Part shown: one piece after another, positions 5,327 through 33,186 of the stretch
How the letters are laid out: the number at the start of each line of letters is the position of its first letter
Position numbering within the stretch: position 1 is the first letter of the stretch
From: Gemmatimonadota bacterium
Lineage (GTDB): Bacteria; Gemmatimonadota; Gemmatimonadetes; Gemmatimonadales; Gemmatimonadaceae
Assembly: GCA_031127095.1 (NCBI GenBank)
Contig: JARIEX010000007.1
Coordinates: 1 to 49,298, forward strand
Length of the DNA: 49,298 bases
Direction: 5' to 3'
Notes under the pieces: model-generated
Told to the model about the DNA's origin: nothing
Seen by the model: only the letters and a program-made list of their open reading frames with translations
Databases searched by the model: none
Position numbers and translations under genes: made by a program

Positions 5327-5331
5327 GCGGC

Positions 5332-5337: not shown

Positions 5338-5348
5338 ACGAAAAGGAA

Positions 5349-5379: not shown

Positions 5380-5451
5380 CGTCACCGTGCCGTATCAGAT
5401 CGCCGAGCGGTACGGCACGACCGATCAGCGGTCAGCCGCGCCCGCCTGCGA

Positions 5452-8385
5452 CTAGAACGAGTACTGCAAACGCGTCATCACCATACGCCCGATCTCCGGC
5501 ACGCCGGGGAAGGTGCGCACGCGGTTGTCGAACAGGTTCGAGGCATTCACCGTCCAGGCGAGCTTCTGCTTGCCCATCATGAAGCGCTTCGTCATCTGCG
5601 CATCGAACGTCACGGCTTCGGAGACGTTCTCGTAGCAGTACGTGCCGGCCGGGGCCGGAGAGCAGCGGCCGGGGCCGCCCGACGCAGTCGCCGTTGCGCC
5701 GGCCTGACCCGGCGCGATCGGGAAGGCAAAACCCGTGGCGTAGACGCCGGAGTTGACGGGATACGCTTCGTTGTACCGCGAGCGCAGCTCGAAGCCGAGT
5801 CCGTTCTCATCGTTCCGGTAGCGCATACCAATCGACCCACGCGAGTTGGGCGAGTTGGACATCAACGGCAGGCCATTCCCGCCGTTCAGACCACGGAAGA
5901 CGTTCTGGCTCTGGTAGCTGTAGGCCAGATCCATCGTCACCCGCTCGGAGGCGGCCACCGTGGTGGCGAGATCGAGACCGCGCACCCACAGCTTGCCGTT
6001 GGACGTGAGGTACGTCGCGTACACCGCGTTCGGCGCCGTGGCACCGTTGGCGAAGGTCACGACACCGACCGGCAGCGACGCGACGCTCGGCGTGACGGCT
6101 CCCGCAATTCCGCTCACGATGGCACCGATCTGCGCCGGCGTGAGGCCGAGCTGCGCGAGCTGCGGCCCGAGGCCGGCGGCGAGCTGCTGCCCGAGATATC
6201 CGCCCAGCTGCTGCGGATTCCCGAAGAACACGTTCGGCGTCGCCAGGGCGGCGCCGGTGCCGACGTCACCGCGCTCCTGACCCCACAGCGCGACGTCGAA
6301 CGTGACCTTGCCACCCACCGTGCCCTTGTAGCCCACCTCGAACGTGTTGTTGAAGGCGGCGGCGAGCGGGTCAATGTCACGGACCGCATCCGTAGCGAGC
6401 GCGGTCGTCGCGGACGTGAGGTACGAGACGCGCGTCGCGAGATCGGCGTTGGTCGGCGTGCGGGTGCCCAAGTACTGCACCGCCCCGCTGGCCAGCTGCT
6501 GCGCGATGGCGGCCGGCAGGCCGGCCTGCTGCAGCGCGCCGGCGATACCGGGCGTGAGGCGCGGAGCCAGCGCCTGAATGGCACCCGGGAACGCGGCCGC
6601 GGCACTGGCGCCGACGAAGTTGCCCTGCGCGGCATACGCCGACTTCATGCAATAGGCACCGAACGCGCTGCCGGTGGAGCAGCTGCGGTTGAACTGCCAC
6701 CCCTGCTTGGGCGGATTGCCACGCGCCTTCACGTCAAAGCCCGACCCGCCGGCGTTCGGCGTCTGGATCAGATCGAGGAAAAAGTTGAAATTGGCCGGCG
6801 TCGAAAACGCGCGGTTGAACGTGACGCGGATGTTCTGATTGGCGTTCGGCTTCAGAATCAGCGCGGCGCGCGGCGAGAAAAACTGGCCGGCGATGACGTT
6901 GTTCCCGTCGGCGCGGGCCGCCAGCAGCACTTCAAGCTGCTTGATCGGCTTGGTGGACGACTGAATGTAGGCGCCGTACTCGGTGACGTTGTCCACGAGC
7001 TCATTGGAGCCGTTGATCGTGCCGCCGGTGCGCGGATTCGTCCAGATGTAGTCAGCGCCGTACGTGAAGCTCTGCTTCTGGCCGAGATCAAAGCCGTGCT
7101 GCAACTGCGCCGCGGCCACCCGGGACTGATCGACGATCGGCTGGCCGGAGCGCAGCAGGTACGTGCCCTTGTCCGAGGTCGACGTGTCGTTGCCGGCGTC
7201 GCTGGAATTGAGGAAGGCCTGGGCGAACAGCTTGTTCCAGCGGAAGCGCTGCTGAAGGCTCAGGTACGTCCAGTTCTTGATCTGCGACGACCCGTTGGCG
7301 CCGGTCAGCTCGATGCCGCTGAGGACGTTGGTGTAGCCCAGCGTGCTGATCGCTTCCATGCCCTCGCGCGGACGCACGTCGAGACGCGCCTCGCCGGTGT
7401 AGCGCTGCAGATCGAAGTCACGCGCGTTCGACTTCCCGCGGCGTGCGGCAGGCACGTACGCGGCGTTCGGGAAGGTCGTGGGTTCGGACCGGTCGTTGTA
7501 CTCCCAGTCGCGGCCTTGCATGTATTCGCCCGACAGCTTGTACGCGACCTTCTCGTTCACCTTGCCGGCATGGCGAAGTCCGGTGCGCAGCACCGACCGC
7601 TCGCCGCCGTCCACGCTGATCGTCGTCCCCTGCGACTGGAACGGCGACTTCGTGATCACGTGGAGCACACCGTTGGAGCTATTCGGCCCGTACAGCGCTG
7701 ACGCCGGTCCGAGGAGCACTTCCATGCGGTCGATGTCTTCGTTCGTGCCAGTGAACAGGAACGGCACGTTCACGCGCAACGACGGCACACCCGCGAAGCG
7801 ATAGTCCTGCAGCATCAGCATGCTGCCGCTGAACGCGTTGTTGAAGCCACGCGCCACCACGTTGGCTTGCGCGATACCGCCCTTGTTGATGTCGACGCCG
7901 GGCGTCGACCGCAGGTGGTCGGTCACGGTCACGGCGGGCCGCTCTTCAATCTGCTGGCTGGTGACCGTGAGAATCTGCGCCGGCGCGTCGAGCACCTTTT
8001 CAGGGCGGGCACGGCTGGCTGTGACGACCGTCTGCTCGAGCACGTTCGCGCGCGGCGTCATCGCAATAGTGAGGGCGGTGCCGGGGCGCACGCTGGCCGA
8101 ACTCTTGGGCGCAAAACCGATCGCCGACACGGTCACGCTGTACGATCCGTCCGGCAGGTTGACGATGCGGAAGGCACCGTCGGCGGCGCTCACGGCACCG
8201 TACGATGCTCCGCCAGCCATGGCGGCTTTGATGGTGGCATTCTCGATCGGCATGCCGGTTTCGGCGTTGGTCACCTTTCCGGTGATCGTACCGGATTGCG
8301 CCGCCAGACCGGTGGCCGCGGCGGGAGCGACCCCCAATGCCAGCAGGGTAGCCGCAAAGACTCGTCGGACGCGAAACAGAACCAT
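5452..8385 (-). CDS. TonB-dependent outer-membrane receptor with carboxypeptidase-regulatory-like domain
   Basis: Outer-membrane transporter driven by TonB; the substrate is unknown. The start at 8385 gives 977 residues and is preceded by GAGG in CCCGAGGTGTGTG. Residues 1-30 form a signal peptide ending AATGLAAQ. Residues about 33-110 are a carboxypeptidase-regulatory-like beta-sandwich (GTITGKVTNAETGMPIENA), LEQTVVTASR at 116-125 is a TonB-box-like segment, and the plug follows to about 240 (LRSTPGVDINKGG). The rest is a 22-strand-type barrel ending in aromatic LQYSF. Two Ala/Gly-rich hydrophobic insertions (about 588-635 and 723-775) and two close cysteine pairs (about 566-580 and 905-917) are unusual. 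The signal-less extension up to 8493 is rejected. It is a single-gene unit with its own terminator. SusC-like polymer uptake is possible, but no SusD partner is adjacent. Confidence 0.92.
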   Translation of the reverse strand: MVLFRVRRVFAATLLALGVAPAAATGLAAQSGTITGKVTNAETGMPIENATIKAAMAGGASYGAVSAADGAFRIVNLPDGSYSVTVSAIGFAPKSSASVRPGTALTIAMTPRANVLEQTVVTASRARPEKVLDAPAQILTVTSQQIEERPAVTVTDHLRSTPGVDINKGGIAQANVVARGFNNAFSGSMLMLQDYRFAGVPSLRVNVPFLFTGTNEDIDRMEVLLGPASALYGPNSSNGVLHVITKSPFQSQGTTISVDGGERSVLRTGLRHAGKVNEKVAYKLSGEYMQGRDWEYNDRSEPTTFPNAAYVPAARRGKSNARDFDLQRYTGEARLDVRPREGMEAISTLGYTNVLSGIELTGANGSSQIKNWTYLSLQQRFRWNKLFAQAFLNSSDAGNDTSTSDKGTYLLRSGQPIVDQSRVAAAQLQHGFDLGQKQSFTYGADYIWTNPRTGGTINGSNELVDNVTEYGAYIQSSTKPIKQLEVLLAARADGNNVIAGQFFSPRAALILKPNANQNIRVTFNRAFSTPANFNFFLDLIQTPNAGGSGFDVKARGNPPKQGWQFNRSCSTGSAFGAYCMKSAYAAQGNFVGASAAAAFPGAIQALAPRLTPGIAGALQQAGLPAAIAQQLASGAVQYLGTRTPTNADLATRVSYLTSATTALATDAVRDIDPLAAAFNNTFEVGYKGTVGGKVTFDVALWGQERGDVGTGAALATPNVFFGNPQQLGGYLGQQLAAGLGPQLAQLGLTPAQIGAIVSGIAGAVTPSVASLPVGVVTFANGATAPNAVYATYLTSNGKLWVRGLDLATTVAASERVTMDLAYSYQSQNVFRGLNGGNGLPLMSNSPNSRGSIGMRYRNDENGLGFELRSRYNEAYPVNSGVYATGFAFPIAPGQAGATATASGGPGRCSPAPAGTYCYENVSEAVTFDAQMTKRFMMGKQKLAWTVNASNLFDNRVRTFPGVPEIGRMVMTRLQYSF

Positions 8386-8538
8386 CACACACCTCGGGAG
8401 GGAGGAAAGAACTTCGAGGTCGCTCAACCCGCAGGAAGGGGCGCGGGAAACGGGGCACGATATGCAGTCCCTATGTTCGCCGGAGGGTCGCACATCGTCA
8501 ATACGTGACGCGACAGTTACGCGGGATAACCGGGGTTT
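8386..8538. other. intergenic region between the receptor gene and ftsK
   Basis: This 153-nt gap must carry the promoter of the receptor gene. A TTGACG lies at 8501-8496 on the minus strand, but the best downstream hexamer (ACATAG) is 19 nt away, so I do not call a promoter. There is no hairpin good enough to be a terminator for ftsK, and no iron-box-like palindrome or riboswitch was recognised. Confidence 0.4.
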
Positions 8539-10860
8539 TTATGTACCGCAGATCCGATCCAGATCCTGCACACCAACCAGCACATCACGGGGGCGCGCGG
8601 CCCCCTCGGAGGGGGCCAGCACGCCTGCCGACTCCAGTTGATCGATGATCCGGGCAGCCCGGCCATAGCCGATCTTGAGTCGCCGCTGCAGGAGCGACGT
8701 GGAGCCCTGGCGGTGCTGGATCACCACCTCCGCGGCCTCGCGGAAGCGCGCATCACGCGCGTCAGGACTGCGCCCGCCGTCCTCCTCATCGCCGCCGCCC
8801 GCTCGCGCTTCGATCTCACGCACGGTTTCGAGAATGTCGGGCTCGGACACAATGCCCTCCCCCGCCTCGTGCCGAGCGCGCGCATCGGCGTACCACGTCA
8901 ATAACCGCTCGGTATCCTCACTGGACAGATACGCCCCCTGCAGTCGGGACGCCTCCGACTTGCCCGGCGGCATGAACAGCATGTCGCCGTTGCCGAGCAG
9001 CGACTCGGCCCCCGCGCCGTCGATAATCGTCCGGCTGTCCACCTGCGAGGCCACCCGGAAGGCAATCCGGCACGGGAAATTCGCCTTGATCAACCCGGTA
9101 ATGACATTCACGCTCGGACGCTGCGTCGCAAGAATGAGGTGGATGCCGATCGCGCGCGCCTTTTGCGCGAGCATGGCGATGGGCGTCTCGACCTCCGCCT
9201 GCACGGTCATCATGAGATCGGCCATCTCATCGATCACCACGACGATGTATGGCAGGATGCCGCCGGCGTAGGTGCGATCCTCGAACCCGACCTCCGGATT
9301 GCGCGGCTTCTGCAGCGCCGCCCCTTCCCCGTCGGCGTGCTGCTGCACGCGCCGGTTGAACTCCTGCAGGTTGCGGCAGGCGTTGGCCTCGAGCAGCCGG
9401 TACCGGTCCTGCATCTCCATGACGGCCCACTTGAGCACCGCGGCCGCATCACGGTTGTCCGTGATCACCTTGTGCCGAAGGTGCGGGAGCGCGTTGTACA
9501 CACTCAGTTCCACCATTTTGGGATCGACCATCAGGAACCGGAGCGTGCGCGGCGTATGCCGGTACGCAAGGCTCGTGATGATCGTGTTCACGCACACGGA
9601 TTTGCCGGAGCCGGTCGCGCCGGCGATCAGCAGGTGCGGCATCTTTGCGAGATCCGCGATCACGGCGCGCCCCTCGAGATCCTTGCCGAGCGCGATGGGG
9701 AGCGCCGCTCGCAGTTGACGGAACTCCGCCGATTCGAGCACCTCGCGCAGCACCACCATTTCCGGTGTCGGGTTCGGCACCTCAACCCCGACCGCCCCGC
9801 GCCCGGGAATCGGCGCCACGATCCGGATGCTTGGCGCGCGCATGGCGAGCGCCAGATCGTCCGCGAGGGCCGCGATCTGGCGCACCTTCACGCCGGGCGC
9901 CGGCTCGATCTCGAACTGCGTGACTGTCGGCCCGGTCGTCCGGCCGACGAGCTCACCATCCACCTTGAACGTGCGCAGCGTGGCCATGAGCTTCTCGCCG
10001 GCCAGGTCGAGTTCGCGTTTGCCCGCCTCCGCATTGCGTGCGGGCGCCGCGGTCAGCAGCGTGGTCGGTGGCAGGTCGTCACTGAACGCCGCCGGCTCCG
10101 ACGCCGCCTCGAGCGTGGCCTCCACCGCAGCGGACGTCGATGCGGGTTCCTTGCTCCCCTTTTTGGGCCGTACCGATTCACGCGACGAGTCCGACGGTGC
10201 GATACGCCCCTCCGGCGGGTCCAGCGCCAGCACCTCGCGCGCCAAGACTGGATCGATCGCGGGTAGCTCGGCGGGATCGGGCGCGAGCAACTCCGCCATC
10301 GACTTCCGTCGCTTCGGTGTGGGCGCGGCATCCGACTCCGGTGCGCCACGGCGGACACCGGAGCCGATGAGGAGTCGGATCGGATTCCATCGCAGCGTGG
10401 CCACCGTGAGCGCGCTCGTGGCCAACAGGAAGAAGACCCACGCGCCAGCCGACCCGAATCCCTTCCGCAGGTAGTGCGCGGCAAAGCTGCCCCACAGTCC
10501 GGCACCGTCGGAGGCTGCCGGCTGCCCTCCCAACGCGAGACCGATCGCGACCGGCACGAGCGCGACCGTACCGGCAAAGAGGACCCCCCAATCGCTGGCG
10601 TCGGCGGCGCGGGCGATGCGGCCGAACAACGTGAGCGCGACGACCAGGCATCCGATCGCCACGATCGCCGCGCCGGGAATGCCGACCGTGCCCACCAGCG
10701 CGCAGCGCACCCAAGTGCCGGTCGGCCCGAACACCCCGGTGGCGTCGAGACACGCAGCGCCGGTCGCGGGGGCGTTGAACACGAGCGCACCGGTCACGAA
10801 CACCGCCAGCAGGGTCAGCGCAATCGCGGAAAGCTCTCGTTTCAAGCCCGTGGCGTCCAC
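8539..10860 (-). CDS. ftsK: DNA translocase FtsK
   Basis: Septal DNA pump that moves chromosome dimers and terminus DNA at division. The product has 773 residues. It has four hydrophobic N-terminal segments (about 10-30, 55-78, 90-112 and 138-158), a Pro/Ala/Ser-rich linker (about 175-290), and the RecA-like motor with Walker A GATGSGKSVCVN at about 414-425 and a Walker B region IVVVIDEMADL near 540. The C-terminal winged-helix gamma domain (STSLLQRRLKIGYGRAARII) reads KOPS sites. The start is GTG at 10860, 3 nt after the comB stop, with no obvious ribosome-binding site. It is the last gene of the long aroQ-acc-pilT-comB chain. Confidence 0.96.
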   Translation of the reverse strand: MDATGLKRELSAIALTLLAVFVTGALVFNAPATGAACLDATGVFGPTGTWVRCALVGTVGIPGAAIVAIGCLVVALTLFGRIARAADASDWGVLFAGTVALVPVAIGLALGGQPAASDGAGLWGSFAAHYLRKGFGSAGAWVFFLLATSALTVATLRWNPIRLLIGSGVRRGAPESDAAPTPKRRKSMAELLAPDPAELPAIDPVLAREVLALDPPEGRIAPSDSSRESVRPKKGSKEPASTSAAVEATLEAASEPAAFSDDLPPTTLLTAAPARNAEAGKRELDLAGEKLMATLRTFKVDGELVGRTTGPTVTQFEIEPAPGVKVRQIAALADDLALAMRAPSIRIVAPIPGRGAVGVEVPNPTPEMVVLREVLESAEFRQLRAALPIALGKDLEGRAVIADLAKMPHLLIAGATGSGKSVCVNTIITSLAYRHTPRTLRFLMVDPKMVELSVYNALPHLRHKVITDNRDAAAVLKWAVMEMQDRYRLLEANACRNLQEFNRRVQQHADGEGAALQKPRNPEVGFEDRTYAGGILPYIVVVIDEMADLMMTVQAEVETPIAMLAQKARAIGIHLILATQRPSVNVITGLIKANFPCRIAFRVASQVDSRTIIDGAGAESLLGNGDMLFMPPGKSEASRLQGAYLSSEDTERLLTWYADARARHEAGEGIVSEPDILETVREIEARAGGGDEEDGGRSPDARDARFREAAEVVIQHRQGSTSLLQRRLKIGYGRAARIIDQLESAGVLAPSEGAARPRDVLVGVQDLDRICGT

Positions 10861-20800: not shown

Positions 20801-21079
20801 CTAGAAGAGGGACCGCGCGATCAGGTAGGCGATCAATACTCCCAGGAGGCTCAGCAGCGAGACATCCAGGGCGACAGGTCCAATGGCGAACTTCAATATA
20901 ACAAGATCGATGGGAAGCGGCCCGACCGCTGGGGTCACCCCGGTGGTCAGGAACTCTTTCACCGCGCCCGCCGGCAGGAAGCGTCGGGCGACCTGCGTGA
21001 GGAGACCTCCGGATACGAACCCAGCGGCCAGCACGGCAACGTGAAACACCGGACGGTGCTTAGAGGGTCCACGGCCCAT
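20801..21079 (-). CDS. small membrane protein resembling DUF4321
   Basis: A 92-residue protein of unknown function with two hydrophobic segments (about 11-30 and 68-90). The C-terminal part, with GPLPIDLVILKFAIGPVALD followed by a membrane helix ending in a basic residue, resembles the DUF4321 family as I remember it; this is family recognition by eye, not a search. It starts with an ATG that overlaps the stop of the polyprenyl synthase gene by one base (TAATG) and is followed 10 nt later by tatA, so the three are probably cotranscribed. Confidence 0.65.
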   Translation of the reverse strand: MGRGPSKHRPVFHVAVLAAGFVSGGLLTQVARRFLPAGAVKEFLTTGVTPAVGPLPIDLVILKFAIGPVALDVSLLSLLGVLIAYLIARSLF

Positions 21080-22083
21080 TACCAGCGCCTCTCGACGACG
21101 TAGGCGATGGCATCCGCGAGGGCAGTACGTGAGGACCCGTCCGGGAGATCCGCCAACGATTCCTCGGCCTCCCTCGAGAACTGGTCGGCCCGCCGACGGG
21201 CATAGTCGAGACCGCCATGCACCCGCACGAGCTCAACGACCTCAGCGATGGCCTCGTCGTCGGGCTCCGGATCAGCGAAGAGCGACTCAACCCGGCCCCG
21301 GGCCGCCGAGTCCATCTCGCGCAGCGCCGCGATGAGTGGGAGGGTGACCTTGTGCTCTTTGAGATCGTGACCGCTCGGTTTGCCGGTCATCTCCTGCCCT
21401 TCCGTGTAGTCGAGCAGGTCATCCGCGACCTGAAACGCCATACCGAGCCGTTCGCCGAACCGCAGGAGCGATCGACGATGCGCGGGGGCGCCACACACAG
21501 CACCGACCTCACACGCGGCCATGAAGAGCGACGCGGTTTTGGCCCGGATCAAGGTGTCGTAATCACTTTCCGAAAACGCCAAGGCATCGTACGCAGCGAG
21601 TTGCCGCAGCTCGCCAAGCGTCATTTCGTTCGAGGCCTGCGTGATGGCCTTCATCGCTTCCAGATCGCCCAGCATGACGAGTTCGCGCAACGCCCGCAGA
21701 TACAGGTAGTCGCCCATGATGACCGACACCTGGTGACTGAAGAGCGCATTGACGGTCGGCCGTCCCCGACGCAACACGGAATGGTCGACCGCATCATCAT
21801 GCACGAGCGTGGCGACGTGAATCAGTTCGATGATCGCGGCGAAGGTGATCGCACGCGGCGGCGCCTCCCGCTCGAGACTGCTCGACAGCAACAACAGCGT
21901 TGGGCGGAAGAGTTTCCCCTTCATGCCCATCAGGTGCTCCTGCACGTCGTTCACCAGCGGCACATCGGCAGACACGATGCGCCAGAGTTCCTGAGACACC
22001 TTGGCCAGATCGTCGCGAACGGGCGCCTGGATGTCGCGCAGGGCCGCCGCCAACGCTGACGGCGTCCGCGTGGAGAGCGTCAT
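21079..22083 (-). CDS. trans-polyprenyl diphosphate synthase
   Basis: Prenyl chain-elongating enzyme of the IspA/IspB/HepT class, condensing isopentenyl diphosphate with allylic diphosphates; the usual product in this context is the side chain of menaquinone or ubiquinone. The 334-residue product has both Asp-rich motifs: DDAVD (near residue 96) preceded by LIHVATLVH, and DDLLD (near 222) in AFQVADDLLDYT, plus GKPSGHDLKEHKVTLPLIAA. Length and the residues before the first DDxxD favour a long-chain synthase, but product length cannot be told from the sequence alone. The start forms an ATGA overlap with the upstream TPR gene and the stop overlaps the DUF4321-like gene. Confidence 0.92.
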   Translation of the reverse strand: MTLSTRTPSALAAALRDIQAPVRDDLAKVSQELWRIVSADVPLVNDVQEHLMGMKGKLFRPTLLLLSSSLEREAPPRAITFAAIIELIHVATLVHDDAVDHSVLRRGRPTVNALFSHQVSVIMGDYLYLRALRELVMLGDLEAMKAITQASNEMTLGELRQLAAYDALAFSESDYDTLIRAKTASLFMAACEVGAVCGAPAHRRSLLRFGERLGMAFQVADDLLDYTEGQEMTGKPSGHDLKEHKVTLPLIAALREMDSAARGRVESLFADPEPDDEAIAEVVELVRVHGGLDYARRRADQFSREAEESLADLPDGSSRTALADAIAYVVERRW

Positions 22084-24617
22084 CGCGCCACCTGATCGAG
22101 CGCCGCCAGTCTGGCGGCAGTATCACGGAAATGAATGTCGGTCGCGTACACGCGCTGATAATAGCTACGAGCCTCGTCCCACCGCTTCAGGGCCTCGCAC
22201 GAATATGCGAGGAGGTAAAGCACGCCCACCCGTTGTTCATCGTCCAGTCCGGGCTCATGAAGCGCCCGGGAAAGTACGGTCGCGGCAACCTGATGCCGCC
22301 CCTGCTCCACAAAACACTGCCCTAACGCCTCGTAGGCCGGGAGCCGATGTGAGCGGCTCCGCAACGCCTTCTGGAACTCCTCGATCGCGTCGTCGAGCAG
22401 CCCCATTTCCTTGTACGCAACCCCGAGGTCGTAATGACTGTCGTAATCGTCCTCACCGAGCGAACGCGCGACCCCCTCCTTGAAGTGCCTGAGGAGCGCG
22501 TGAAAGTCGGCCTGTTCGTCTCCACTGATCGTAGGCTCCCGCATCCGCATGCGGGTGGACGTCGGCGCGTCCTCGTCGCGGAGCCACTCCGCCAGATTGA
22601 CGAACGGTCCGTCGGCGCCCGGTTTCGGTGGGGCGGGCGGCGCCGCACTCCCTAGCGCAGCACGGGCACGGCCATCGTACGGATCGATCTCGAGCACGCG
22701 CGCGTACACCGCCCGGGCCCGCGCCTCCTCACCGATGCGCACCAGCGCATCCGCCAGATCCAGATAGGCGACGCGGAGACGTTGCTGATCCTTCAGCCGC
22801 ACGGACAGTTCCACGCGCTTCTGGTGGAACGCAATCCGTTCCGGACTGACCTGCACCAAGGTGTCCGCGATATCGGCACTGGCGGACAGCTCGCCCTGGG
22901 CGGCCAGCCCCTGCTGGGCGGTCTCCAGTTCCGCGAGTGCGGCATCACGCTCGCCTGCCTCGAAGAGCGCCTCCGCCAGCCGGCGACGGAGAAGCCAGTC
23001 CTGCGGATGTCTGGCCACCGCGCCCCGCAGCGCATCCCGCCGGGAGGTGGCCACCATCGTGGCTTCGGTCGCGACTGCGGCCATCGGCAGCGCCGGCGTC
23101 ACCATCACCGGCCGCTCCGACCCGGCCGCGACCCGTGCCTCGCCCGACGCTCGGCCTTGCGGAATCGGTCGGTTCGCCTCGCCGGAAAGCGAGCCGTCAT
23201 CGCGGTGCCCGAGCCCGGTTTCGCCGCTGGGGGCGCCAGCGAATGGCACGCGACCAGTCCCGGCCTCCGTGACCGCCGATGTCGTCATGGCCGCAAGACC
23301 CGCCGTGATCAGCGCATCGTCCAGCAGCAACGGCGGAAGTTCACCCGGGAGGATGAAGTCATGCGGATCGATCCGGAACACCGAACGGGTGTCAGCGACG
23401 GCCGTCTCCGCCGCCAGGGCGGACTGTGCACCCGCCACGATCGCCGCGTCCAACTCCGGGACATCGGTGACATCGAGTGGCTCGATCCCAACGGCCGGTT
23501 CGGCTGCGTCGGGCTCAATCCACGCGACGGGGGCGTCCGGTGCCGGGACCTCACTTCGGATGATCTGCGCGACACCCGGATCCTCGGTCGCCTGACCGAA
23601 CTCCTCCGGTTCAAACTCCGCGAGCCACACCGGCCCGCCCGGCACCGCGGCCTGATCGCCCGTGGCGTTCGGCTCGAACCCAGCCTCCTGACGCACCCCG
23701 GCCAGCCCACCGGCGTCCGGCAGCCACGTCACATCGCTCGGATGGACCGTTGGATCAACGACGAGATCGGGCGACTCCAGATACTCGACAGTCAGTCCGG
23801 CCAGCGGAGGCTCACCCAGGTCGGTGTAATCACCGGAGGCCTCGAGTCCTTCGAGTTGCTCGACGCGTGCCACCGGGGGCTCCGTGACCGACGCGCTGGC
23901 GGTGTCGGCCACCGGTTTCGCAACCGCGACCGCCGGGAGTGCCGCAACGGCCAGAGGTGTCGGCACGCGCGGTGTCCGCAGCGGTGTGCGTCGTGAGGCC
24001 GGCGCGCCGTAATCCACCTCGAGAAAGATCAGATCTTGCGACTTCTCCCGACCGGGCAACCGGGGCTGCTCTTCGAGGGCGACAGAGGCCGCCGACGGCG
24101 TCAAGCGCCGCCGCAGCACGATGCCCGCGCGATCCGCGTGCTCATCGACCAGCCGACGCACCTCGGTCAACTCGGGCATCAGGTCGGCCACCTCTGCCAG
24201 CGCCCGCATCCCCTCGTCGACGCGCTCCTCTTGCTGCATGCGCGTGGCATACTCCAGGAAGTTTCGCGTGGCGTCCCCGCGCAGTCCCTTACGGGCACAG
24301 ATACGCCCCAAGGTGAAGTACACGTTCGCACGGCCGGGCGCGTTCCGCAGGATCTTGTTGCACAGCGCGATGGCGTTGTTGAACAACCCCGCGTTCGTGT
24401 AGTGCTCGACCGCCCGCTCATAATACGTGATCGCATCGGGCACGCGTCCCTGACGCAGCGCGAGATCACCAACCTTGTTGAGCAGCGCGACATCAACGTC
24501 CTCGCCGGCCTGCTCGCTCTCCTCGATGGCTCTCACATACGAGGCAATCGCGCGGTCGATCTGTTTCAGCTGCTCGAACTCAGCCGCCTTCTTCCGGTGC
24601 TTCGCGGCGTTGGACAT
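22080..24617 (-). CDS. large TPR-repeat protein with disordered acidic centre
   Basis: Unassigned 845-residue protein. The N-terminal ~150 residues are TPR repeats (QLKQIDRAIASYVRAIEESE, DAITYYERAVEHYTNAGLFN, ARKGLRGDATRNFLEYATRM). A long Ala/Pro/acidic stretch (about 190-530) seems disordered. The C-terminal ~300 residues are again TPRs (RAVYARVLEIDPYDGRARAA, YDLGVAYKEMGLLDDAIEEF, EALGQCFVEQGRHQVAATVL). No signal peptide or membrane helix is seen, so it is probably a cytoplasmic scaffold. Its plan resembles the TPR protein at 16333-18330, and both head operons of otherwise housekeeping genes. Here polyprenyl synthase, a small membrane protein and tatA follow, coupled by ATGA. A promoter candidate lies at 24707-24735. 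Confidence 0.85.
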   Translation of the reverse strand: MSNAAKHRKKAAEFEQLKQIDRAIASYVRAIEESEQAGEDVDVALLNKVGDLALRQGRVPDAITYYERAVEHYTNAGLFNNAIALCNKILRNAPGRANVYFTLGRICARKGLRGDATRNFLEYATRMQQEERVDEGMRALAEVADLMPELTEVRRLVDEHADRAGIVLRRRLTPSAASVALEEQPRLPGREKSQDLIFLEVDYGAPASRRTPLRTPRVPTPLAVAALPAVAVAKPVADTASASVTEPPVARVEQLEGLEASGDYTDLGEPPLAGLTVEYLESPDLVVDPTVHPSDVTWLPDAGGLAGVRQEAGFEPNATGDQAAVPGGPVWLAEFEPEEFGQATEDPGVAQIIRSEVPAPDAPVAWIEPDAAEPAVGIEPLDVTDVPELDAAIVAGAQSALAAETAVADTRSVFRIDPHDFILPGELPPLLLDDALITAGLAAMTTSAVTEAGTGRVPFAGAPSGETGLGHRDDGSLSGEANRPIPQGRASGEARVAAGSERPVMVTPALPMAAVATEATMVATSRRDALRGAVARHPQDWLLRRRLAEALFEAGERDAALAELETAQQGLAAQGELSASADIADTLVQVSPERIAFHQKRVELSVRLKDQQRLRVAYLDLADALVRIGEEARARAVYARVLEIDPYDGRARAALGSAAPPAPPKPGADGPFVNLAEWLRDEDAPTSTRMRMREPTISGDEQADFHALLRHFKEGVARSLGEDDYDSHYDLGVAYKEMGLLDDAIEEFQKALRSRSHRLPAYEALGQCFVEQGRHQVAATVLSRALHEPGLDDEQRVGVLYLLAYSCEALKRWDEARSYYQRVYATDIHFRDTAARLAALDQVAR

Positions 24618-24706: not shown

Positions 24707-24735
24707 AAGCTAGGGATCACCACGACGGGTGACAA
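24707..24735 (-). promoter_or_regulatory. candidate promoter of the large TPR gene
   Basis: On the minus strand TTGTCA (24735-24730), a 17-nt spacer and TAGCTT (24712-24707) make the best promoter match in the window. The -35 box lies inside the last codons of hutI, and the leader would be about 80 nt. Confidence 0.5.
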
Positions 24736-25997
24736 GCACGTCCACCGGCCCATGCCAGCGTACAGAGACGCTCGCCGAACCAATACGGCAACGCCCGGAA
24801 GTCGTCGACGGCGTGCACCGCGAGGTCCGCACGGAATCCCTCCGCGAGCTGTCCGGTCGTCCCGGCGAGCCCCAACGCGGCCGCTCCATTCACGGTGCCG
24901 GCAATCCACGCCTCCGAGGCCGACATCCGGAGCTCGCTCACGGCGAGGGTGAGCACGAGTGGGAAGGATTGAAGGGGTGACGTCCCCGGGTTGAAATCGG
25001 TGGCCACCGCGACGGCTGCACCGGCATCGATCAGAGCTCGGGCGGGGGCCTGACGCCCCGTCCCCAGGAACAGCATCGTCGCGGGCAGCAGCGTCGCGAC
25101 GGTACGGGAGCGGGCCAACGCCTGAACGCCAGCGGGTGAGATCGCCGCCAGATGATCGGCGCTCACGGCGTCGATGGACGCCGCCAACGCTGCCGCACCG
25201 CCGTCATGTAGTTCATCAGCATGCAGCTTGCTGCGAAGCCCCAGCGCAGCCGCGGCCGCCAGCAGATGCCGTGTCTCCGCCACATCGAACACACCGGGCT
25301 CACAGAAGACGTCCGCAAAGGCGGCCAGCCCCTCCGCGGCAACGGCCGGGTACAACTCGCCCGTCAGGCAGTCGATCCACGTGCGGCGCCCGTCCGGCGC
25401 GTCCCGATATTCCATCGGCACCTCGTGCGCCCCCATGCACGTCGCCACGACATGCAGCCCACCGATTGCCGCGAGGCGCGCGATCACCCGGAGGGAACGC
25501 AGTTCGTCGTGTACCGTCAGGCCGTATCCGGACTTGATCTCGACGGTGGTCACGCCGCCGGCCGCGAGGGTGCGCAGCCGCGGCACGGCCAGCGCGAAGA
25601 GGTCGTCATCGGTGCGCGCACGCAGGTCTCGCACCGAGGCATGGATTCCGCCGCCCCGACGGGCGATTTCGAGGTACGGCACCCCCGTCGCACGCAGCTC
25701 GTGCTCCTCGTACCGGGCGCGACCGAACACCGCGTGGGTGTGCGAATCCACGAAGCCGGGGGCGAGCAAGCCGCCCTCACAGTCGATCTCGCGAGCCCCG
25801 GGGAAACGCCGGCGCAACGCGTCGTCGGCATCCACGCCGACAATGCGATCGCCCTGCACGGCCACGCCGCAGCCACGCCGCACGTCCGCGTCCTGCATCT
25901 CGGTACCGCGTCGCGCCCGCGCGGGCCCGGCACAGGTGACCGTCTGCGCGGCGTTCACGAAGATCGTCACGATGCCGTCGTTCCCGAGCGCCGTCAT
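24717..25997 (-). CDS. hutI: imidazolonepropionase
   Basis: Third step of histidine degradation: hydrolysis of 4-imidazolone-5-propionate to N-formimino-L-glutamate. The 426-residue product belongs to the amidohydrolase superfamily. The metal motif DSHTHAVF is near residues 83-90, EIKSGYGL near 155-162, KLHADEL near 255, and the conserved ATDFNPGTSP near 330. The ATG forms an ATGA overlap with the upstream radical SAM gene, so the two are translated together. It is the last gene of the hut operon; a promoter for the next gene begins in its 3' end. hutG or hutF for the next step is not in the window. Confidence 0.97.
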   Translation of the reverse strand: MTALGNDGIVTIFVNAAQTVTCAGPARARRGTEMQDADVRRGCGVAVQGDRIVGVDADDALRRRFPGAREIDCEGGLLAPGFVDSHTHAVFGRARYEEHELRATGVPYLEIARRGGGIHASVRDLRARTDDDLFALAVPRLRTLAAGGVTTVEIKSGYGLTVHDELRSLRVIARLAAIGGLHVVATCMGAHEVPMEYRDAPDGRRTWIDCLTGELYPAVAAEGLAAFADVFCEPGVFDVAETRHLLAAAAALGLRSKLHADELHDGGAAALAASIDAVSADHLAAISPAGVQALARSRTVATLLPATMLFLGTGRQAPARALIDAGAAVAVATDFNPGTSPLQSFPLVLTLAVSELRMSASEAWIAGTVNGAAALGLAGTTGQLAEGFRADLAVHAVDDFRALPYWFGERLCTLAWAGGRACHPSW

Positions 25998-26968
25998 GCC
26001 ATCACATCCCGTACCCGCGACATGAGCCGCAGGGGAGCCTGCGCCTCACCGCGGCACGCGTAGTAGCAGGCGTTGCAGTCAATCGGCGCATACCCGGCGT
26101 AGTCCTGCCAGCGGCCGTCCGGCTTGAAGTCCGGGCACCGCCGCACCATACCCTGCGGATCGATGTGGATCGTCGTCGATCCGCTCCGGCACGGCTCCGT
26201 CATCTCGCCGCGCACATAGCGCGGAATCTGCTCGAGGTAGTAGTCGGAGTTGGTGATGATGCCGCGCTTGCGCTGCTTGTACGCCAGCAGTTCCTGCACG
26301 ACGGCCTCCAGCTGACGCTGCTGCGCGGCGCCCAGCAGGTGCTCCCCGTTGCCGTTCTTGAAGTCGGTGTACAAGGAAAAGTTCACGCCGCCTCCGAGTG
26401 CCGCCGCGCGCTCGACGATCGGCATGAGCTGGTCGAGATTGTCGTTCTTGATGACGGTGTTGAAGCGCACGCTGCCGATGCCGGCGCCGCGCATACGCGG
26501 CACGAGATCGAGAATTTTCTGCGACAACCCGGGAATCCCGCGCGCGACGTCGTGCCGTTCATCGAGGTAGTCCAGCGAAATATTGAACTGATCCACCCCG
26601 GCATTCCACAGCGACGTGGCACGCTCGAGCGACAACAGGGCACCGTGCGTAATCAGCTGCACGTAGGTGTACCGGACCGCCTTGCGGACGGACGCGACGA
26701 TCTCCTCGAGATCACGGCGCAGGGTGGGCTCGCCGCCGGTGAACGTGACGAGCATGGGCGAGAAGCGCCGAGCGATCTCAGCGAAATCGTTCAGCTCACC
26801 CAGCCGGGCGTCCGCCGGCGTCTTCCAGTAATCGCAGAAGCCGCAGCGCGCATTGCAGCGCATCGTGACTTCGAAATTGAGCAGCACCGGGCGATCGCGC
26901 ATCCTCAGCCATGCGTATTTGCCCAGAAAGATCGGCACGTGCCACGGGCGATAGCGGCTGGACAGCAT
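25994..26968 (-). CDS. radical SAM enzyme with SPASM/twitch-like C-terminus, in hut operon
   Basis: A 324-residue radical SAM protein of unknown function. The S-adenosylmethionine-binding 4Fe-4S motif CNARCGFC uses C38, C42 and C45, and the GGEPT motif is at 78-82. The C-terminal part shows CX12GX4C (C260, G273, C278) followed by C298, C301 and C305 in DCNACYYAC, which matches a shortened SPASM or twitch domain that would bind an auxiliary Fe-S cluster. Such enzymes modify peptides, proteins or small molecules (the PqqE/MoaA/anaerobic sulfatase-maturase group). The gene is inserted between hutU and hutI with one-base (TAATG) and four-base (ATGA) overlaps, which suggests a job tied to histidine catabolism. 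No precursor-peptide gene is seen beside it. Confidence 0.88.
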   Translation of the reverse strand: MLSSRYRPWHVPIFLGKYAWLRMRDRPVLLNFEVTMRCNARCGFCDYWKTPADARLGELNDFAEIARRFSPMLVTFTGGEPTLRRDLEEIVASVRKAVRYTYVQLITHGALLSLERATSLWNAGVDQFNISLDYLDERHDVARGIPGLSQKILDLVPRMRGAGIGSVRFNTVIKNDNLDQLMPIVERAAALGGGVNFSLYTDFKNGNGEHLLGAAQQRQLEAVVQELLAYKQRKRGIITNSDYYLEQIPRYVRGEMTEPCRSGSTTIHIDPQGMVRRCPDFKPDGRWQDYAGYAPIDCNACYYACRGEAQAPLRLMSRVRDVMA

Positions 26969-28665
26969 TAGCCGCCCAACATGGGCAGCTGGATGCCTTC
27001 ACGCGCCGCGGTGGCCAGGGCGATGTCGTACCCCGCATCCGCGTGACGCGCCACCCCGATCCCGGGATCATTGGTCAGCACACGCGTCAGCCGCCGGTGC
27101 ATGCGCGCACTGCCATCCGCCACGATCACCTGTCCGGCGTGCAGCGAGTTGCCGATGCCGACACCACCGCCGTGATGGAACGACACCCAGGACGCACCAC
27201 TGGCCACATTCAGGAGGGCATTGAGAATCGCCCAGTCAGCGATTGCATCCGATCCGTCGCGCATCGCTTCCGTCTCGCGGAAGGGCGAGGCGACGCTGCC
27301 GGTATCCAGATGGTCGCGCCCGATGACGATTGGCGCTGAGACCTCGCCGCGTGCCACCAGATCGTTCAGCGCCAACGCGAACCGTGCCCGATCCCCCTGC
27401 CCCAGCCAGCAAATCCGCGCCGGCAACCCCTGAAAGGCAATGCGCTCGCGCGCGAGGGTGATCCACCGGCGCAGCTGCTGGTCGTCCGGAAACATCTCGA
27501 GCACGAGGTCGTCGGTGCGTGCGATGTCCGCCGGATCACCCGACAGCGCCACCCACCGGAACGGGCCTTTCCCCTCGCAGAAGAGTGGACGGATGTACTC
27601 CGGCACGAACCCGGGGATGCGGAACGCATCATCGATACCCGCGTCGAAGGCAACCGTGCGGATGTTATTCCCGTAGTCGAACGTGACGGCACCGCGATCC
27701 TGCAACGTGCGCATGGCACGGACATGCTCGACGACGGACTGCGTGGCCCGCGCGATATACGCCGTAGGATCCTCGGCCCGCAGGAGATCGGCCTCCTGCA
27801 GCGACATGCCGGCCGGGACGTATCCCACGAGCATGTCGTGCGCACTGGTCTGATCGGTGACCACATCCGGCTGCACGCCGCGGCGCACCAGCTCCGGCAA
27901 CACCAGCGCGGCATTGCCCACCAGCCCCACCGACAGCCCCACCCGTGCGGCTTGCGCCTCGGCGAGCCACACGAGTGCCTCATCGAGGAAGGTCGTCATC
28001 CGATCGCAGTACCGCGTCTCGATCCGCTTCGCGATGCGCGCGGCATCGACGTCGATACCCAAGACGGCCGCGCCGTGCATGGTCGCGGCGAGTGGCTGCG
28101 CGCCGCCCATACCGCCCAATCCGGCCGTGACGACGAGCCGACCTTCGAGCGTGCCGCCGAAGTGACGCGTGGCCACCGCACCGAATGTCTCGTAGGTCCC
28201 CTGCACAATGCCTTGTGAGCCGATGTAGATCCACGAGCCAGCCGTCATCTGCCCGTACATCGTCAGTCCGGCCCGCTCGAGACGACGGAACTCATCCCAG
28301 TTCGCCCACCGACCGACCAAGTTACCGTTGGCGATCAGCACGCGGGGGGCATCCTCATGGGTGCGAAACACGGCCACCGGTTTCCCACTCTGCACCAGCA
28401 GCGTCTCGTCGTCGGCCAGCGTGCGGAGCGCCCGGACGATCGCGTCGAACGCGTCCCACGACCGCGCGGCGCGCCCGGTGCCGCCGTACACGACGAGATC
28501 ATCCGGACGCTCAGCGACATCGGGGTCCAGGTTGTTCATCAGCATACGAAGCGCCGCTTCCTGCTCCCAGCCCCGGCACTGCATGACCGCGCCCCGTGGG
28601 GCACGCACCGGCCGAGGACCGCGGAGCGTGTGCCCTTCCGGTTCTGATTGCATGGCGTTTCTCAT
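26968..28665 (-). CDS. hutU: urocanate hydratase
   Basis: Second step of histidine degradation: addition of water to urocanate using a tightly bound NAD as electrophile, giving 4-imidazolone-5-propionate. The chosen start at 28665 forms an ATGA overlap with hutH and gives 565 residues, the normal length; an in-frame ATG at 28653 is also possible. The family features are [20 protein letters not shown] near the N-terminus, the NAD-binding [16 protein letters not shown] near residue 185, and the late DYGNNIRT and [10 protein letters not shown] segments. The open frame extends to 29001, but this overlaps hutH in another frame and has no family resemblance, so it is rejected. Confidence 0.97.
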
Positions 28666-30179
28666 AGGGAAAACTCCTCCGTGATCACATCGAGTGCACC
28701 GGCCGCCAGGGCGTCCGCGAGTCGGGTGATATCCGGCGCAGGCGGGCGATCGCCCTCCGACCGCGCGACATATTGACGGATGATGGCGTGCGCCTGCTCG
28801 ACCGACGTACTGCTGCGCAGCGGCCGTCGGTACTCCAGCGCCTCGGCCGCAGCGATCAATTCGATGGCCAGCACGTGACGAAGGTTGCGCACCGTCCGTC
28901 GCAGCTTGGTGGCCGCCCCCATCGCCATCGGAACCACATCTTCCTTGTTCCCATCCGTGGGGATCGAGTCCACGCTGGCGGGGTGTGCGAGTGACTTGCA
29001 TTCGCTGGCCAGCGCGGCGGCCGTCACCTGCGACATCATATGGCCGGATTCGAGCCCCGGTGAACCGGCGAGGAATGGCGGCAGTCCCTGATTAAAATCC
29101 GGATGCACCAGCCGGTCGGTCCGACGCTCGCTGATCACGGCCAGATTCGCGCAGATGATGGCCAACAGATCACTCGCCATGGCCACCGCCTGTCCGTGAA
29201 AATTACCGCCGCTCAGCAACTCGCCGGTCTCCATCACCAGCGGATTATCCGTGGCGGCATTCAGTTCGCGCGAAATGATGCCTCGCGCGAAGCGCAACGC
29301 ATCGAGCGCCGGCCCATGCACCTGTGGCACGCAGCGCAACGCGTACGCGTCCTGCACACGAGGGTCGCCGTGACGGTGCGACTCGCGGATCTCGCTGCCG
29401 GAGAGCAACTGCCGCAGGATCGCCGCCGACTCGCTCTGCCCGGTCTGCCCCCGGGCCTCCTGAATACGCGCGTCAAAGGCATCCGGGGTGCCAAGCAACG
29501 CCTCGAGGCTCATGGCCGTGGCCACGTGCGCCGCGCGCCAGAGACGGGTCAGTTCCGCGCAGGCCAGTGTCGCCACCGCCGTGTGCGCTTGGGTGCCGTT
29601 TATGAGCGCCAAGCCTTCCTTCGCTTCGAGCGTGACGGCGCCCAGACCGGCCGCATGCAGCAGCTCGAGCGACGGTGCCTCCCGCCCCTGAAACCGGGCG
29701 GTCCCCTCGCCGATGAGCGTCAGCGCGAGATGCGCCAATGGCGCCAGATCACCGCTCGCGCCGACACTGCCCTGCTCCGGGACCACCGGCCACACACCCG
29801 CGTTCAGCATCGCGATCAGCGCATCGACCACCAGCGGACGGGCACCGGCATACGCCGTGGCCAGCACATTGGCGCGCAACAGCATCATGGCGCGCACTTC
29901 CCGTTCGGGCAGCGGGTCGCCGACACCGGCGGCGTGGCTGCGCACCAGATTCCGCTGCAGCGCCGCGAGCTGGTGCGGCGCGATGGTGACTTCCGACAGC
30001 TTGCCGAAGCCGGTGTTCACCCCGTACACCGGCGCTTCCAGCGCGACCGCCCGATCGACTACATCGCGGGTCACCTGCATCCGGGCCCGCGCCTCGGGGG
30101 CCAAGCCCACCACGCGATGCCCCTCCGCCACGGCGAGCACATCGTCGATCTGCAGCGAACGCCCATCCAGCGGCAACAT
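28662..30179 (-). CDS. hutH: histidine ammonia-lyase
   Basis: First step of histidine degradation: non-oxidative deamination to trans-urocanate. The 505-residue protein has the self-cyclising Ala141-Ser142-Gly143 in [14 protein letters not shown] that forms the MIO electrophile, [10 protein letters not shown] near residue 53, and the late [19 protein letters not shown]. The start at 30179 is set by AGGAGGAGGAA just upstream, the best ribosome-binding site in the window; an ATG at 30221 in the same frame is therefore rejected. It lies only 31 nt after lptD, with no room for a clear promoter, so it is probably read from the envelope operon as well as, or instead of, any local signal. Confidence 0.97.
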
Positions 30180-30181
30180 CG

Positions 30182-30192
30182 TTCCTCCTCCT
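30182..30192 (-). promoter_or_regulatory. strong ribosome-binding site of hutH
   Basis: AGGAGGAGGAA ends 2 nt before the hutH ATG region, with the AGGAGG core at usual spacing. It decides the start at 30179 and suggests strong independent initiation within a polycistronic message. Confidence 0.75.
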
Positions 30193-30210
30193 GGCGGGCG
30201 CACCCGCGGA

Positions 30211-33186
30211 TCAGAATCCACTGGAAGACCGGTAGGTCTGCCGATCGTAGTTGAACTTGAGCTCGGGTTGCGCTTTCAGGGCAATGAAAAAGTTGAACGC
30301 GAAACTGCCACTCGGCGTCTGCGAAAACGAGAACACCGCGTTCCAGTCATGCAGTTCGCGTTGCAGACCAAGCTGCTGGCTCGCAAAACTTGCCCGCTCG
30401 ACGTCGTACTGCGTGCTCCACTGCGCCGACCAGTTCCGCGTGATGTCGAACGACATCGTGGCGGTGACGTTCTGCGTGGCCGGCTGAATGAATACGGGCG
30501 CTCCGATCGCGCTCTGCCCGGAGGTCAGTCCCGTCGCCTGTGCATTCTGTGCATTCTGCACGCATTGATCGTATACGAACACGCCGAGTGCCCGCTGTGG
30601 TTCGCACAGGGAGGCCGGATCGTTCACGATCTGCGTACCGCCGCGCGGCCGGCGCTGGCGCGCGGCATTGTACTGTAGATTGAGATTCCAGCCACCACCT
30701 GACGGCAGCGACATCTGCATGCCGCGCATGTTGCCACCGCCGGCGGCGTTCATCTGGCGGCTCTGCTGGTTCACATTCTGGTCGGCCACGTTGCGCGGCG
30801 CATTGGTGCTGTCAATCGCCTCGAGCGCGGTGGACATGCCGAGCAAGCGACCGAACAGTGCCACCAGCCCTGACTGCCCATTCAGCGAGAAAGTGACGCC
30901 GAAATCGGTGCGGTACGGGCTGAACGTAGCCGTGTCGGACGCGGGATCGCCCTGAAAGAGATCGTAGGACGTCCGGAAATCGAGACCGGGTAGCAGGTCC
31001 GTGCGACCAGACACCGTGAACATCTTGTCGGTGAACCCGTTTCCGGTCGAATCAGCCCGGATGAAGTCATACGACAGCGACGAGAAGTTCATGGAGAGCA
31101 GCTTGATCTTCTTCCCCGACTCCGGTGTCGAATCCGCGTCGGACTTCAGCTTCGCTTCCAAATTGGTGGCCAGACTCAGCGACACGCGGTTCTGCGCCAG
31201 GGACGACAGATACCCCACGCGCGTGCGTCCCAGCGCCTGCAGATACTCGTCGCTCACATTGGCGTTTGGCGAATAGCTGTAGCTCACGCCGGGCGAGATG
31301 GCATGGCGGAATTTCGCGACCGAGCCAATGCCGGGCAGCATGGCGTACAGCGTCGGCGAGGCTGAAAGCGCATAGCTCAGCCGTTTGGATTGCTGGACCC
31401 ACTTGCCGCCACTGCGCTCCGTGCGCACGAACAACCCCGATGCATTGTCGACGTTGTTCACCGAGATCGACGGCGACACGTTCCAGCTGCCCTGAAAGAA
31501 CCGCGGCAGACCGAACGACGTGTTCCAGTCGATGTTCGACTCGAACGTCTTGGCGTAGATACGTGTGGACCGCACAGACGTATCACGCACACCGATCAGT
31601 TCACGTTGTTCCGGAAAATCACGGAAGTTGTCAGTCATCGTGAACGTGTTGTTCCACTGCCAATCACCGATCTTGATCGGTGTCTCGAAGCCGATCTGCA
31701 TATTGCGGCGGCTCGCACTGAACCGCGAGCTGTCGATGCCGCCGCCCGCCCGGCTGTTGTAAACGAATGGGAATTGGAGCCCTTGATCGATCTTGCTTTG
31801 TCCCGTGACGCTCAACCGGAGCGACGGCGTCCAGGAGAACGGGCCACCAGCCAGCGTACCCGCCGTGACGTTCAGCGACGGGAAATCCATGTCGACCTGC
31901 GTCCGCCCGGGATACTGCACGCGGCTGCCTCCAACGCTGATCTGGGCGGGCCCGATCTTCGTCTGGTAGTTCAACTGCGACCGGATCGTAGCGTTCGCGG
32001 CGACCGGATTGATGGTGGTCTGTCGCTGGATCTGGGTATTCTGAACCCAGTTGAGCCGCGCGGTGAGCCGCGTCTGCCTCGAGAAATCCTGACTGTGATT
32101 CCAGGTGATCGACGTGTTCGTCGTGCCGTTGCGCTGCGCGAGATACGACACGGCCGTCTCGCCGCTGATGAACCGGTCCAGCCACTTGTACCGCAGTTCG
32201 ACGTTACTGCGCACAAATCCAGGATCCGATGCGGTGCTCCTGGCGCCGGAACGCCAGTCGAACGACGCTTCCGCGTTCATGTAATCGCTGATCGCCAGAA
32301 AGTACCCGATGTTCGAAATACTCCGGCGGTACGACGGGCTGTTCCGGAACAGTTCAGCGATACCGAAGTTGGGCGTGAGCATGCCGCTCCGACGACCACT
32401 ACGCACGTCCTGAAAGAAGAACGGGATCCAAAACACCGGCACCTCGCCGATGTACAGCACACCCGGGCGCGCCACCATCACGTTCTCCGAGACGAACTTC
32501 ATGTCGCGCGAGGTGAAGTGGAAATGCGGCTCGGCGTGGTCGCAGTAGCTGAACGACCCGTTTTTCGCGAACACGATGTGCCGACCGCTCACGACGGAGT
32601 CGGAGAGGATCGTCGCACGCTCGGCGCTCAGGAACAGCCGCTGGCCGGACGTGACAGACGTCGAAAAGGCGCCCATCTCTCCCTCCCGCGCCTGGAGGTC
32701 ATACTCGATCTTGCCACGCGCAATGAGATCATCGGCGTCCTGCTGCTGGGGATCACGCAGCAACACCGTATCGCCGAGGGCCAAGACGCGCTTGGTGGAA
32801 TCGTTGTAGATGATCGTGTCCCCGATGATCATCGTTTCGTCGCGCTGCACCGCCGACGGCTTTCCCTTGAGAATCAAGGCGCGTGACCCGGCATTGAAGA
32901 ACACCGTGTCCGCTTGATACTGCACCTTGCGGTATCCTTCCCGATCCAGCAGCGCCCGCATGAGGGAATCGGGTGGCGTCCAGCTGAACACGCTGCGCTC
33001 CTTGCTCAACGCCGCAATGCTGTCTTTGCCTTGGCGAGGTGCGCCCTTCCCCTGCGGTGCAGGGCGCGGCGGCTGCGGCCGCTGGGCCGCCAGGGACCAC
33101 GGCAGCACCGCAGCCACGACGCAGAGCCCCGCGATGAGCCGCGTTGCCGCACGCCAGAGGCCGACCCCCACCACGCGTGGACTCAC
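30211..33186 (-). CDS. lptD: LPS-assembly outer-membrane protein LptD
   Basis: Outer-membrane barrel that inserts lipopolysaccharide into the outer leaflet. The 991-residue product has a signal peptide (hydrophobic about 14-30, ending SLAAQ), an OstA/LptA-like N-terminal jelly roll (DTIIYNDSTKRVLALGDTVL and neighbours), and a large barrel; IGEVPVFWIPFFFQD and SGRRSGMLTPNFG (about 245-270) are hallmark sequences. It starts with GTG overlapping the tatC stop (GTGA). The mature part has three cysteines, including one in SYCDHAEPHFHF, so the two-disulfide pattern of Escherichia coli LptD is not preserved. No lptE is adjacent. This gene implies an LPS-bearing outer membrane. Confidence 0.93.
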   Translation of the reverse strand: MSPRVVGVGLWRAATRLIAGLCVVAAVLPWSLAAQRPQPPRPAPQGKGAPRQGKDSIAALSKERSVFSWTPPDSLMRALLDREGYRKVQYQADTVFFNAGSRALILKGKPSAVQRDETMIIGDTIIYNDSTKRVLALGDTVLLRDPQQQDADDLIARGKIEYDLQAREGEMGAFSTSVTSGQRLFLSAERATILSDSVVSGRHIVFAKNGSFSYCDHAEPHFHFTSRDMKFVSENVMVARPGVLYIGEVPVFWIPFFFQDVRSGRRSGMLTPNFGIAELFRNSPSYRRSISNIGYFLAISDYMNAEASFDWRSGARSTASDPGFVRSNVELRYKWLDRFISGETAVSYLAQRNGTTNTSITWNHSQDFSRQTRLTARLNWVQNTQIQRQTTINPVAANATIRSQLNYQTKIGPAQISVGGSRVQYPGRTQVDMDFPSLNVTAGTLAGGPFSWTPSLRLSVTGQSKIDQGLQFPFVYNSRAGGGIDSSRFSASRRNMQIGFETPIKIGDWQWNNTFTMTDNFRDFPEQRELIGVRDTSVRSTRIYAKTFESNIDWNTSFGLPRFFQGSWNVSPSISVNNVDNASGLFVRTERSGGKWVQQSKRLSYALSASPTLYAMLPGIGSVAKFRHAISPGVSYSYSPNANVSDEYLQALGRTRVGYLSSLAQNRVSLSLATNLEAKLKSDADSTPESGKKIKLLSMNFSSLSYDFIRADSTGNGFTDKMFTVSGRTDLLPGLDFRTSYDLFQGDPASDTATFSPYRTDFGVTFSLNGQSGLVALFGRLLGMSTALEAIDSTNAPRNVADQNVNQQSRQMNAAGGGNMRGMQMSLPSGGGWNLNLQYNAARQRRPRGGTQIVNDPASLCEPQRALGVFVYDQCVQNAQNAQATGLTSGQSAIGAPVFIQPATQNVTATMSFDITRNWSAQWSTQYDVERASFASQQLGLQRELHDWNAVFSFSQTPSGSFAFNFFIALKAQPELKFNYDRQTYRSSSGF

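Follow-up and report, generated by a model that had tools for sequence, protein, structure and literature searches.

A gene for a radical SAM protein lies between hutU and hutI in the window (the whole stretch of DNA analysed here, 49,298 nucleotides), and its place raises the question of whether it takes part in histidine use or resides there for another reason. To our knowledge, the histidine degradation pathway needs no radical SAM enzyme. The surrounding genes are all on the minus strand, in the order TatC, LptD-like protein, hutH, hutU, radical SAM protein, hutI, TPR protein, polyprenyl synthase and DUF4321. Histidine ammonia-lyase (hutH, 28662..30221) scored 656 bits with NF006871 (cut-off 524) and 633.5 bits with TIGR01225 (cut-off 539), imidazolonepropionase (hutI, 24717..25997) scored 387 bits with TIGR01224 (cut-off 298), and urocanate hydratase (hutU, 26968..28614) scored 935 bits with TIGR01228 over 26980-28611. 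All three thus passed their ordinary NCBIfam cut-offs, a point against a Hut-linked role for the radical SAM protein. The hutU gene is contained in a longer ORF (26968-29001), which has approximately 130 extra codons before the conserved start of urocanase. Its own start is probably near 28614, because the first ORF residue matched by the urocanase profile is 131. Upstream of the hut genes is the LptD-like outer-membrane protein (30211..33186; PF19838, 134.6 bits), and the next operon gene downstream of them encodes the TPR protein (22080..24617, assigned from Pfam TPR families and synteny), followed by the IspB-like polyprenyl diphosphate synthase (21079..22083; PF00348, 210 bits, and synteny).

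The radical SAM gene itself (25994..26968, minus strand) encodes 324 amino acids from an ATG start, and the radical SAM domain (PF04055, 84.6 bits, cut-off 29.5) was its sole Pfam domain. Re-reading the sequence bore out the preliminary description as to the ORF and its length, the SAM-site cysteines C38, C42 and C45 (CX3CX2C), GGEPT at residues 78-82, and the two C-terminal cysteine motifs, C260-X12-G273-X4-C278 and C298-X2-C301-X3-C305. The overlaps were also as described, with one base common to the hutU stop and the radical SAM start, and four bases common to the radical SAM stop and the hutI start. This close coupling is a property of the window but not a general feature, as only 8 of the 30 measured hutU-radical SAM pairs overlap; using script-estimated start codons, the gap to hutU ranged from -4 to 284 bases and that to hutI from -32 to 1072 bases. 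In 64 ortholog sequences, 86 of the 324 columns were invariant, which, together with the same place across many genera, indicates that the gene is real and not a chance reading frame. The invariant residues include H108, Y200, K204, N205 and R277.

The enzyme had been called a radical SAM/SPASM-type protein, and this was correct insofar as it is a radical SAM protein with an auxiliary-cluster cysteine pattern; the seven-cysteine SPASM motif is absent. The SPASM motif is CX9-15GX4C-CX2CX5CX3C-C, and a Twitch-type (half-SPASM) site combines CX9-15GX4C with additional cysteines that bind a single cluster. Only C260, C278, C298, C301 and C305 are present in the window protein, of which C260-X12-G-X4-C278 with C298 and C301 would make a Twitch-type site with one auxiliary cluster. 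Neither a SPASM match (at E<=0.001) nor a PqqD/RRE domain was found in it with Pfam. Eight cysteines were invariant in 44 orthologs, namely C38, C42 and C45 of the SAM cluster and the five assigned by sequence to the auxiliary site. C260, C278, C298 and C301 were kept in ten A3 rows; at the fifth auxiliary cysteine, C305, those distant aligned rows that reach the column have T or I. The predicted structure (pLDDT 86.5, pTM 0.87) has the partial TIM-barrel fold of radical SAM enzymes according to Foldseek, and is weak over residues 301-324 (62-66), the stretch which holds C301 and C305. The first 41 of the 50 Foldseek rows listed could be assigned to known radical SAM enzymes, by their titles or otherwise, and had an rmsd of about 5-12. 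The nearest folds, in the first 13 rows, included BlsE, SkfB, MoaA, PqqE, SuiB and viperin (TM 0.55-0.64, large rmsd).

None of the named NCBIfam equivalogs reached its cut-off among the best 25 of the 48 families matched at E<=1e-3, and the same was true of the best 25 matches listed for L014 and for the ortholog from L144, a locus outside the family. For all three the best family was the PTO1314 family radical SAM protein (TIGR03961), an entry for a hypothetical equivalog without function; it aligned with residues 22-275 of the window protein but scored 94.5 bits where the cut-off is 306, and the CX2CX3C motif falls outside the matched stretch. MoaA (GTP 3',8-cyclase) has the same CX3CX2C core in a solved chain of approximately 340 residues, carries a C-terminal auxiliary cluster as well, and was the best solved-structure match by sequence; its profile, however, gave 81.9 bits against a cut-off of 284, the match ended ahead of the C-terminal cysteines, and the same genome has a separate MoaA-like protein (L002, C92, named by resemblance only). 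The top Foldseek match was BlsE (cytosylglucuronate decarboxylase; 7vob, TM 0.62, rmsd 9.3), but its profile score was 46.5 bits against a cut-off of 400 and no blasticidin genes were noticed. PqqE and other SPASM maturases share the CX9-15GX4C opening of their motif with the window protein, which scored 76 bits against 381 for PqqE and is without the seven-cysteine set, an RRE domain or a visible precursor. A characterised orthologue was not found among the NCBIfam and solved-structure sequence matches. The best reading of these motifs is an unnamed MoaA/PqqE-like radical SAM subfamily with one SAM-binding [4Fe-4S] site and one predicted auxiliary iron-sulphur site.

The resemblance to SkfB, PqqE and SuiB, which are peptide maturases, and the many weak NCBIfam matches to such maturases could mean that its substrate is a ribosomal peptide, or else an envelope protein, made from the same operon. 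We consider this unlikely, given the missing PqqD/RRE domain and the overlapping genes, which leave no room for a precursor gene between them, although a more distant precursor is conceivable. Nor was a peptide gene noticed, among ORFs of at least 60-70 codons, beside the four orthologs from outside the family described below.

The distribution of the gene was determined in the window's own family, the Gemmatimonadaceae (f1), and in two neighbouring families (f2 and f3). In a sample of 151 genomes of the order, an ortholog of at least 61% identity was present in 71 of the 73 f1 genomes and in none of the 78 from f2 and f3, five of which gave only 28-32% matches at the threshold used; hutU was present in 75 of these 78. 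In a sample of 395 genomes of the phylum, with up to five candidates per genome scored, 131 of 140 own-family genomes had an ortholog (61-97% identity), and nothing above 33% identity appeared beyond the family among the rows listed. A radical SAM branch that has no assigned function and occurs in nearly every genome of one family is thereby singled out. Of the nine own-family genomes with no ortholog, only G080 has an intact locus (L062) from which the gene is missing, and this is a true absence. Joint loss with the hut genes was considered for G032 and rejected, as the contig stops some 120 bases past hutH. The contigs of G278, G334 and G338 likewise end short of the radical SAM place: inside hutU, just behind hutH and inside lptD, respectively. 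In G363 and G376 the contig extends approximately 1.0-1.2 kb past lptD, and neither a hut nor a radical SAM match was obtained there; G331 and G375 gave no lptD match.

Within the family, the place of the gene is strongly conserved. It follows hutU on the same strand in 109 of the 131 genomes, 5-686 bases (median 23) behind the end of the profile match. The position between hutU and hutI, pointed out in the preliminary description, holds across the Gemmatimonadaceae. Such constancy over many genera, with the overlaps in the window, favours the proposal made there, that the substrate is histidine, urocanate or imidazolonepropionate, or that the enzyme is a maturase for one of the Hut proteins. 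So does the presence of hutU in 161 of the family's 179 genomes, which means that the two genes nearly always coexist. A hutU match was missing from only three of the 131 genomes: G340 and G377, where contigs break beside the radical SAM gene and hutI is present, and G253, which is 88% complete and has a hut-less locus. Since nearly every genome with the gene has hutU somewhere, there may still be a general link to histidine metabolism.

The 22 genomes without an adjacent hutU comprise twelve with a hut-less locus, two with hutH only, G340 and G377, and six which were left out (G255, G294, G386, G128, G269 and G122). In the twelve hut-less loci, one per genome (L034, L035, L038, L039, L052, L088, L089, L090, L091, L093, L096 and L097), the radical SAM gene is present, and no hutH, hutU or hutI was detected between lptD and the TPR gene by tblastn at E<=1e-8. 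In eleven of them lptD is its upstream neighbour and it starts -1 to 45 bases behind, a spacing as tight as that behind hutU at other loci; L093 is the exception, with 1.2 kb between the two. Four further loci retain hutH alone, and two of these (L056 and L057) are extra copies in G130, with the order hutH-radical SAM-TPR-ispB on small contigs. The radical SAM protein of L057 is identical to that of L060 (G144), suggesting that bins were mixed.

Mapped on a 47-ortholog tree, the hut state of the locus changes seven times (6-7 in bootstrap replicates, at least five being forced by well-supported branches), a count which does not tell loss from gain. The order lptD-hutH-hutU-hutI-TPR-ispB is found without the radical SAM gene in L065 (f2) and in L062 of G080, and is partly seen in L064; the full order in the first two implies that the hut genes were at the locus before the radical SAM gene. 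A Hut component would be expected to stay with the hut genes across lineages. Instead, the gene was kept through approximately seven separate departures of its hut neighbours, and hut genes occur without it in G080, as does hutU in the 75 f2 and f3 genomes. The role in histidine use that had been put forward is accordingly not borne out, and we regard it as improbable. The enzyme is probably not a histidine enzyme, because it stays behind lptD when the hut genes leave, and there is a good probability that it works outside the Hut pathway, as a radical SAM enzyme housed in an envelope operon to which hut genes also belonged. The gene would have entered the existing lptD-hutH-hutU-hutI-TPR-ispB operon in the family ancestor, been read with whichever gene precedes it, and remained behind lptD where the hut genes left. 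The arrangement reported in the preliminary description is thus true and strongly conserved, but it records a place of insertion and not a role in histidine use. Even a perfectly coupled operon gene can be a lodger, its position conserved over many genera while the adjoining pathway is outlived about seven times.

The hut genes that lie elsewhere in these genomes are also against a Hut-linked role. Second-site hut clusters were fetched from seven of the twelve genomes with hut-less loci (L070, L071, L098-L101 and L103) and from one hutH-only genome (L102), and none of the eight stretches holds a radical SAM ortholog. In five of the eight (L098-L100, L103 and L071) hutU is only 60-63% identical to that of the window and the gene orders are different, as if these clusters had been replaced from outside. 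In the other three (L070, L101 and L102) the identity is 69-80%. For a further four genomes with a hut-less locus (G291, G308, G140 and G393), hutU elsewhere is recorded in the search table only.

Outside the family, relatives were sought by a scan of named genomes with a 31% relative as the query, which found 215, and the best 80 of these were kept (L108-L187). They form a sister clade spread across many phyla, here called A-type, as distinct from the B-type of the window. At the matched gene, A-type proteins are 26-36% identical to the window protein, and the two types have RHDxxRxIPGL, SxYT and CX17C...CX2C features in common. They differ in that the aligned A-type rows have T or I at the third cysteine of the B-type CX2CX3C, and they separate on a tree, where the B-type clade (L144 and seven own-family rows, with 35 A-type genes for comparison) is supported at 99/91. 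Four B-type genes were identified outside the family. One is a second gene in L144, 38% identical to the window protein; the other three (L241, L242 and L243, 40-43% identity) were detected among 64 genomes from the phylum to which L131 belongs (Latescibacterota by its record) and were left out of the tree. Searches for the B-type were negative for 82 genomes from the phylum of L123 (KSB1 by its record; E<=1e-70) and for 43 of the 44 genomes of A-type loci covered (44 of the 80 loci). They were also negative for 297 genomes from the phylum of L154 (Acidobacteria by its record; E<=1e-72), a weak negative with no more than seven candidates per genome scored in the rows listed.

No hut match was seen beside the four outside B-type genes in the stretches examined. 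Their neighbours are mixed. In L242 they are URO-D and Lut genes (LutA/LutB-like), and L243 is alike by its ORFs; in L241 there are LPG_synthase_TM and a glycosyltransferase within 9 kb, and convergent ORFs which resemble fts/mur genes, named by reading their sequences. In L144, positions 5071-9537 encode in a row a cyclic-nucleotide-binding protein, an A-type radical SAM protein, an FGE-sulfatase domain protein, a VTT-like protein and the B-type radical SAM protein, and the stretch ends approximately 100 bases behind the last of these. The VTT-like protein scored 29.2 bits, below the Pfam cut-off of 33.9, and aligns with the VTT neighbours of the sister clade. Among the A-type loci, hut genes were beside the radical SAM gene in one of 80: in L164 (4147-6981), an Acidobacteria MAG, a lone hutU lies on the same strand about 100 bases upstream, with no hutH or hutI match in the stretch. 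A search at E<=1e-3 added only a 54-residue hutI-like fragment (L172), and L154, a near relative of L164, has no hutU. L164 is the one observation outside the family that favours a Hut-linked role, and we judge it compatible with chance. Outside the family, the neighbours of the homologues correspond largely to what the preliminary description had named as telling against its proposal, namely other contexts without hut genes, L164 being the exception.

The A-type neighbourhoods have a different recurrent content. VTT is a domain related to DedA, and a VTT gene is beside the A-type gene in 45 of the 80 loci, in 39 of them within 200 bases on the same strand; the remaining 35, some cut by contig ends, have no such gene. 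A CDP-alcohol phosphatidyltransferase gene is directly upstream in 10 of the 80, all of which also have the VTT gene. These counts were made with profiles built from such neighbours, and samples of one phosphatidyltransferase and three VTT proteins were above the Pfam cut-off. Recent studies point to DedA proteins as flippases of undecaprenyl phosphate (PMC10127716). Gene triples of an ABC ATPase, an A-type radical SAM protein and LolA occur in another family within the window's phylum, at 2625-5139 of L073 and 4969-7704 of L077.

The place behind lptD, together with the VTT, CDP-alcohol phosphatidyltransferase and LolA genes found next to sister-clade members, makes an envelope or lipid-linked small metabolite our leading guess for the substrate of the non-Hut enzyme, tentative as it is. 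The enzyme would cleave SAM to give a 5'-deoxyadenosyl radical, which would take a hydrogen from that substrate, and the auxiliary cluster may bind the substrate or move an electron. The guess is weakened by the absence of the sister-clade VTT type from all 16 same-family genomes tested, for which reason a VTT link for the family was set aside, and by the mixed B-type neighbours outside the family. The lptD adjacency may be as accidental as the hut adjacency. A housekeeping role apart from the envelope, in cofactor, nucleotide or sugar chemistry, with the operon place due to chance, also belongs to the non-Hut reading; its likelihood overlaps with that of the main explanation and competes only with the envelope substrate. 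We rate it not far short of an even chance. The closest profiles and folds include MoaA, BlsE, viperin and AbmM, all enzymes with nucleotide or sugar substrates, and the mixed neighbours of the outside B-type genes fit such a role as well; on the other side, in the loci looked at, no neighbour from a nucleotide or sugar pathway stood out as conserved.

The radical SAM/VTT/CDP-alcohol phosphatidyltransferase neighbourhood of the sister clade spans phyla and is the more promising lead. The A-type gene with the VTT and phosphatidyltransferase genes is possibly an undescribed lipid cassette. A wider version, which we think rather unlikely, is that a cassette of an A- or B-type radical SAM enzyme, a CDP-alcohol phosphatidyltransferase and a DedA-superfamily-like VTT protein makes and moves a radical-modified polar lipid in several phyla, the B-type branch having come to lie behind lptD in the Gemmatimonadaceae, with the hut genes there by happenstance. 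No report of the B-type gene or of this neighbourhood appeared in the titles and abstract openings of the open-licence literature matches listed. Among viral contigs, the only match was a short one at 30%. Plasmids searched by tblastn gave matches in 271 records, all below 60% identity, and the 20 listed were to PqqE, MftC, NirJ or unannotated genes at approximately 26-31% identity.
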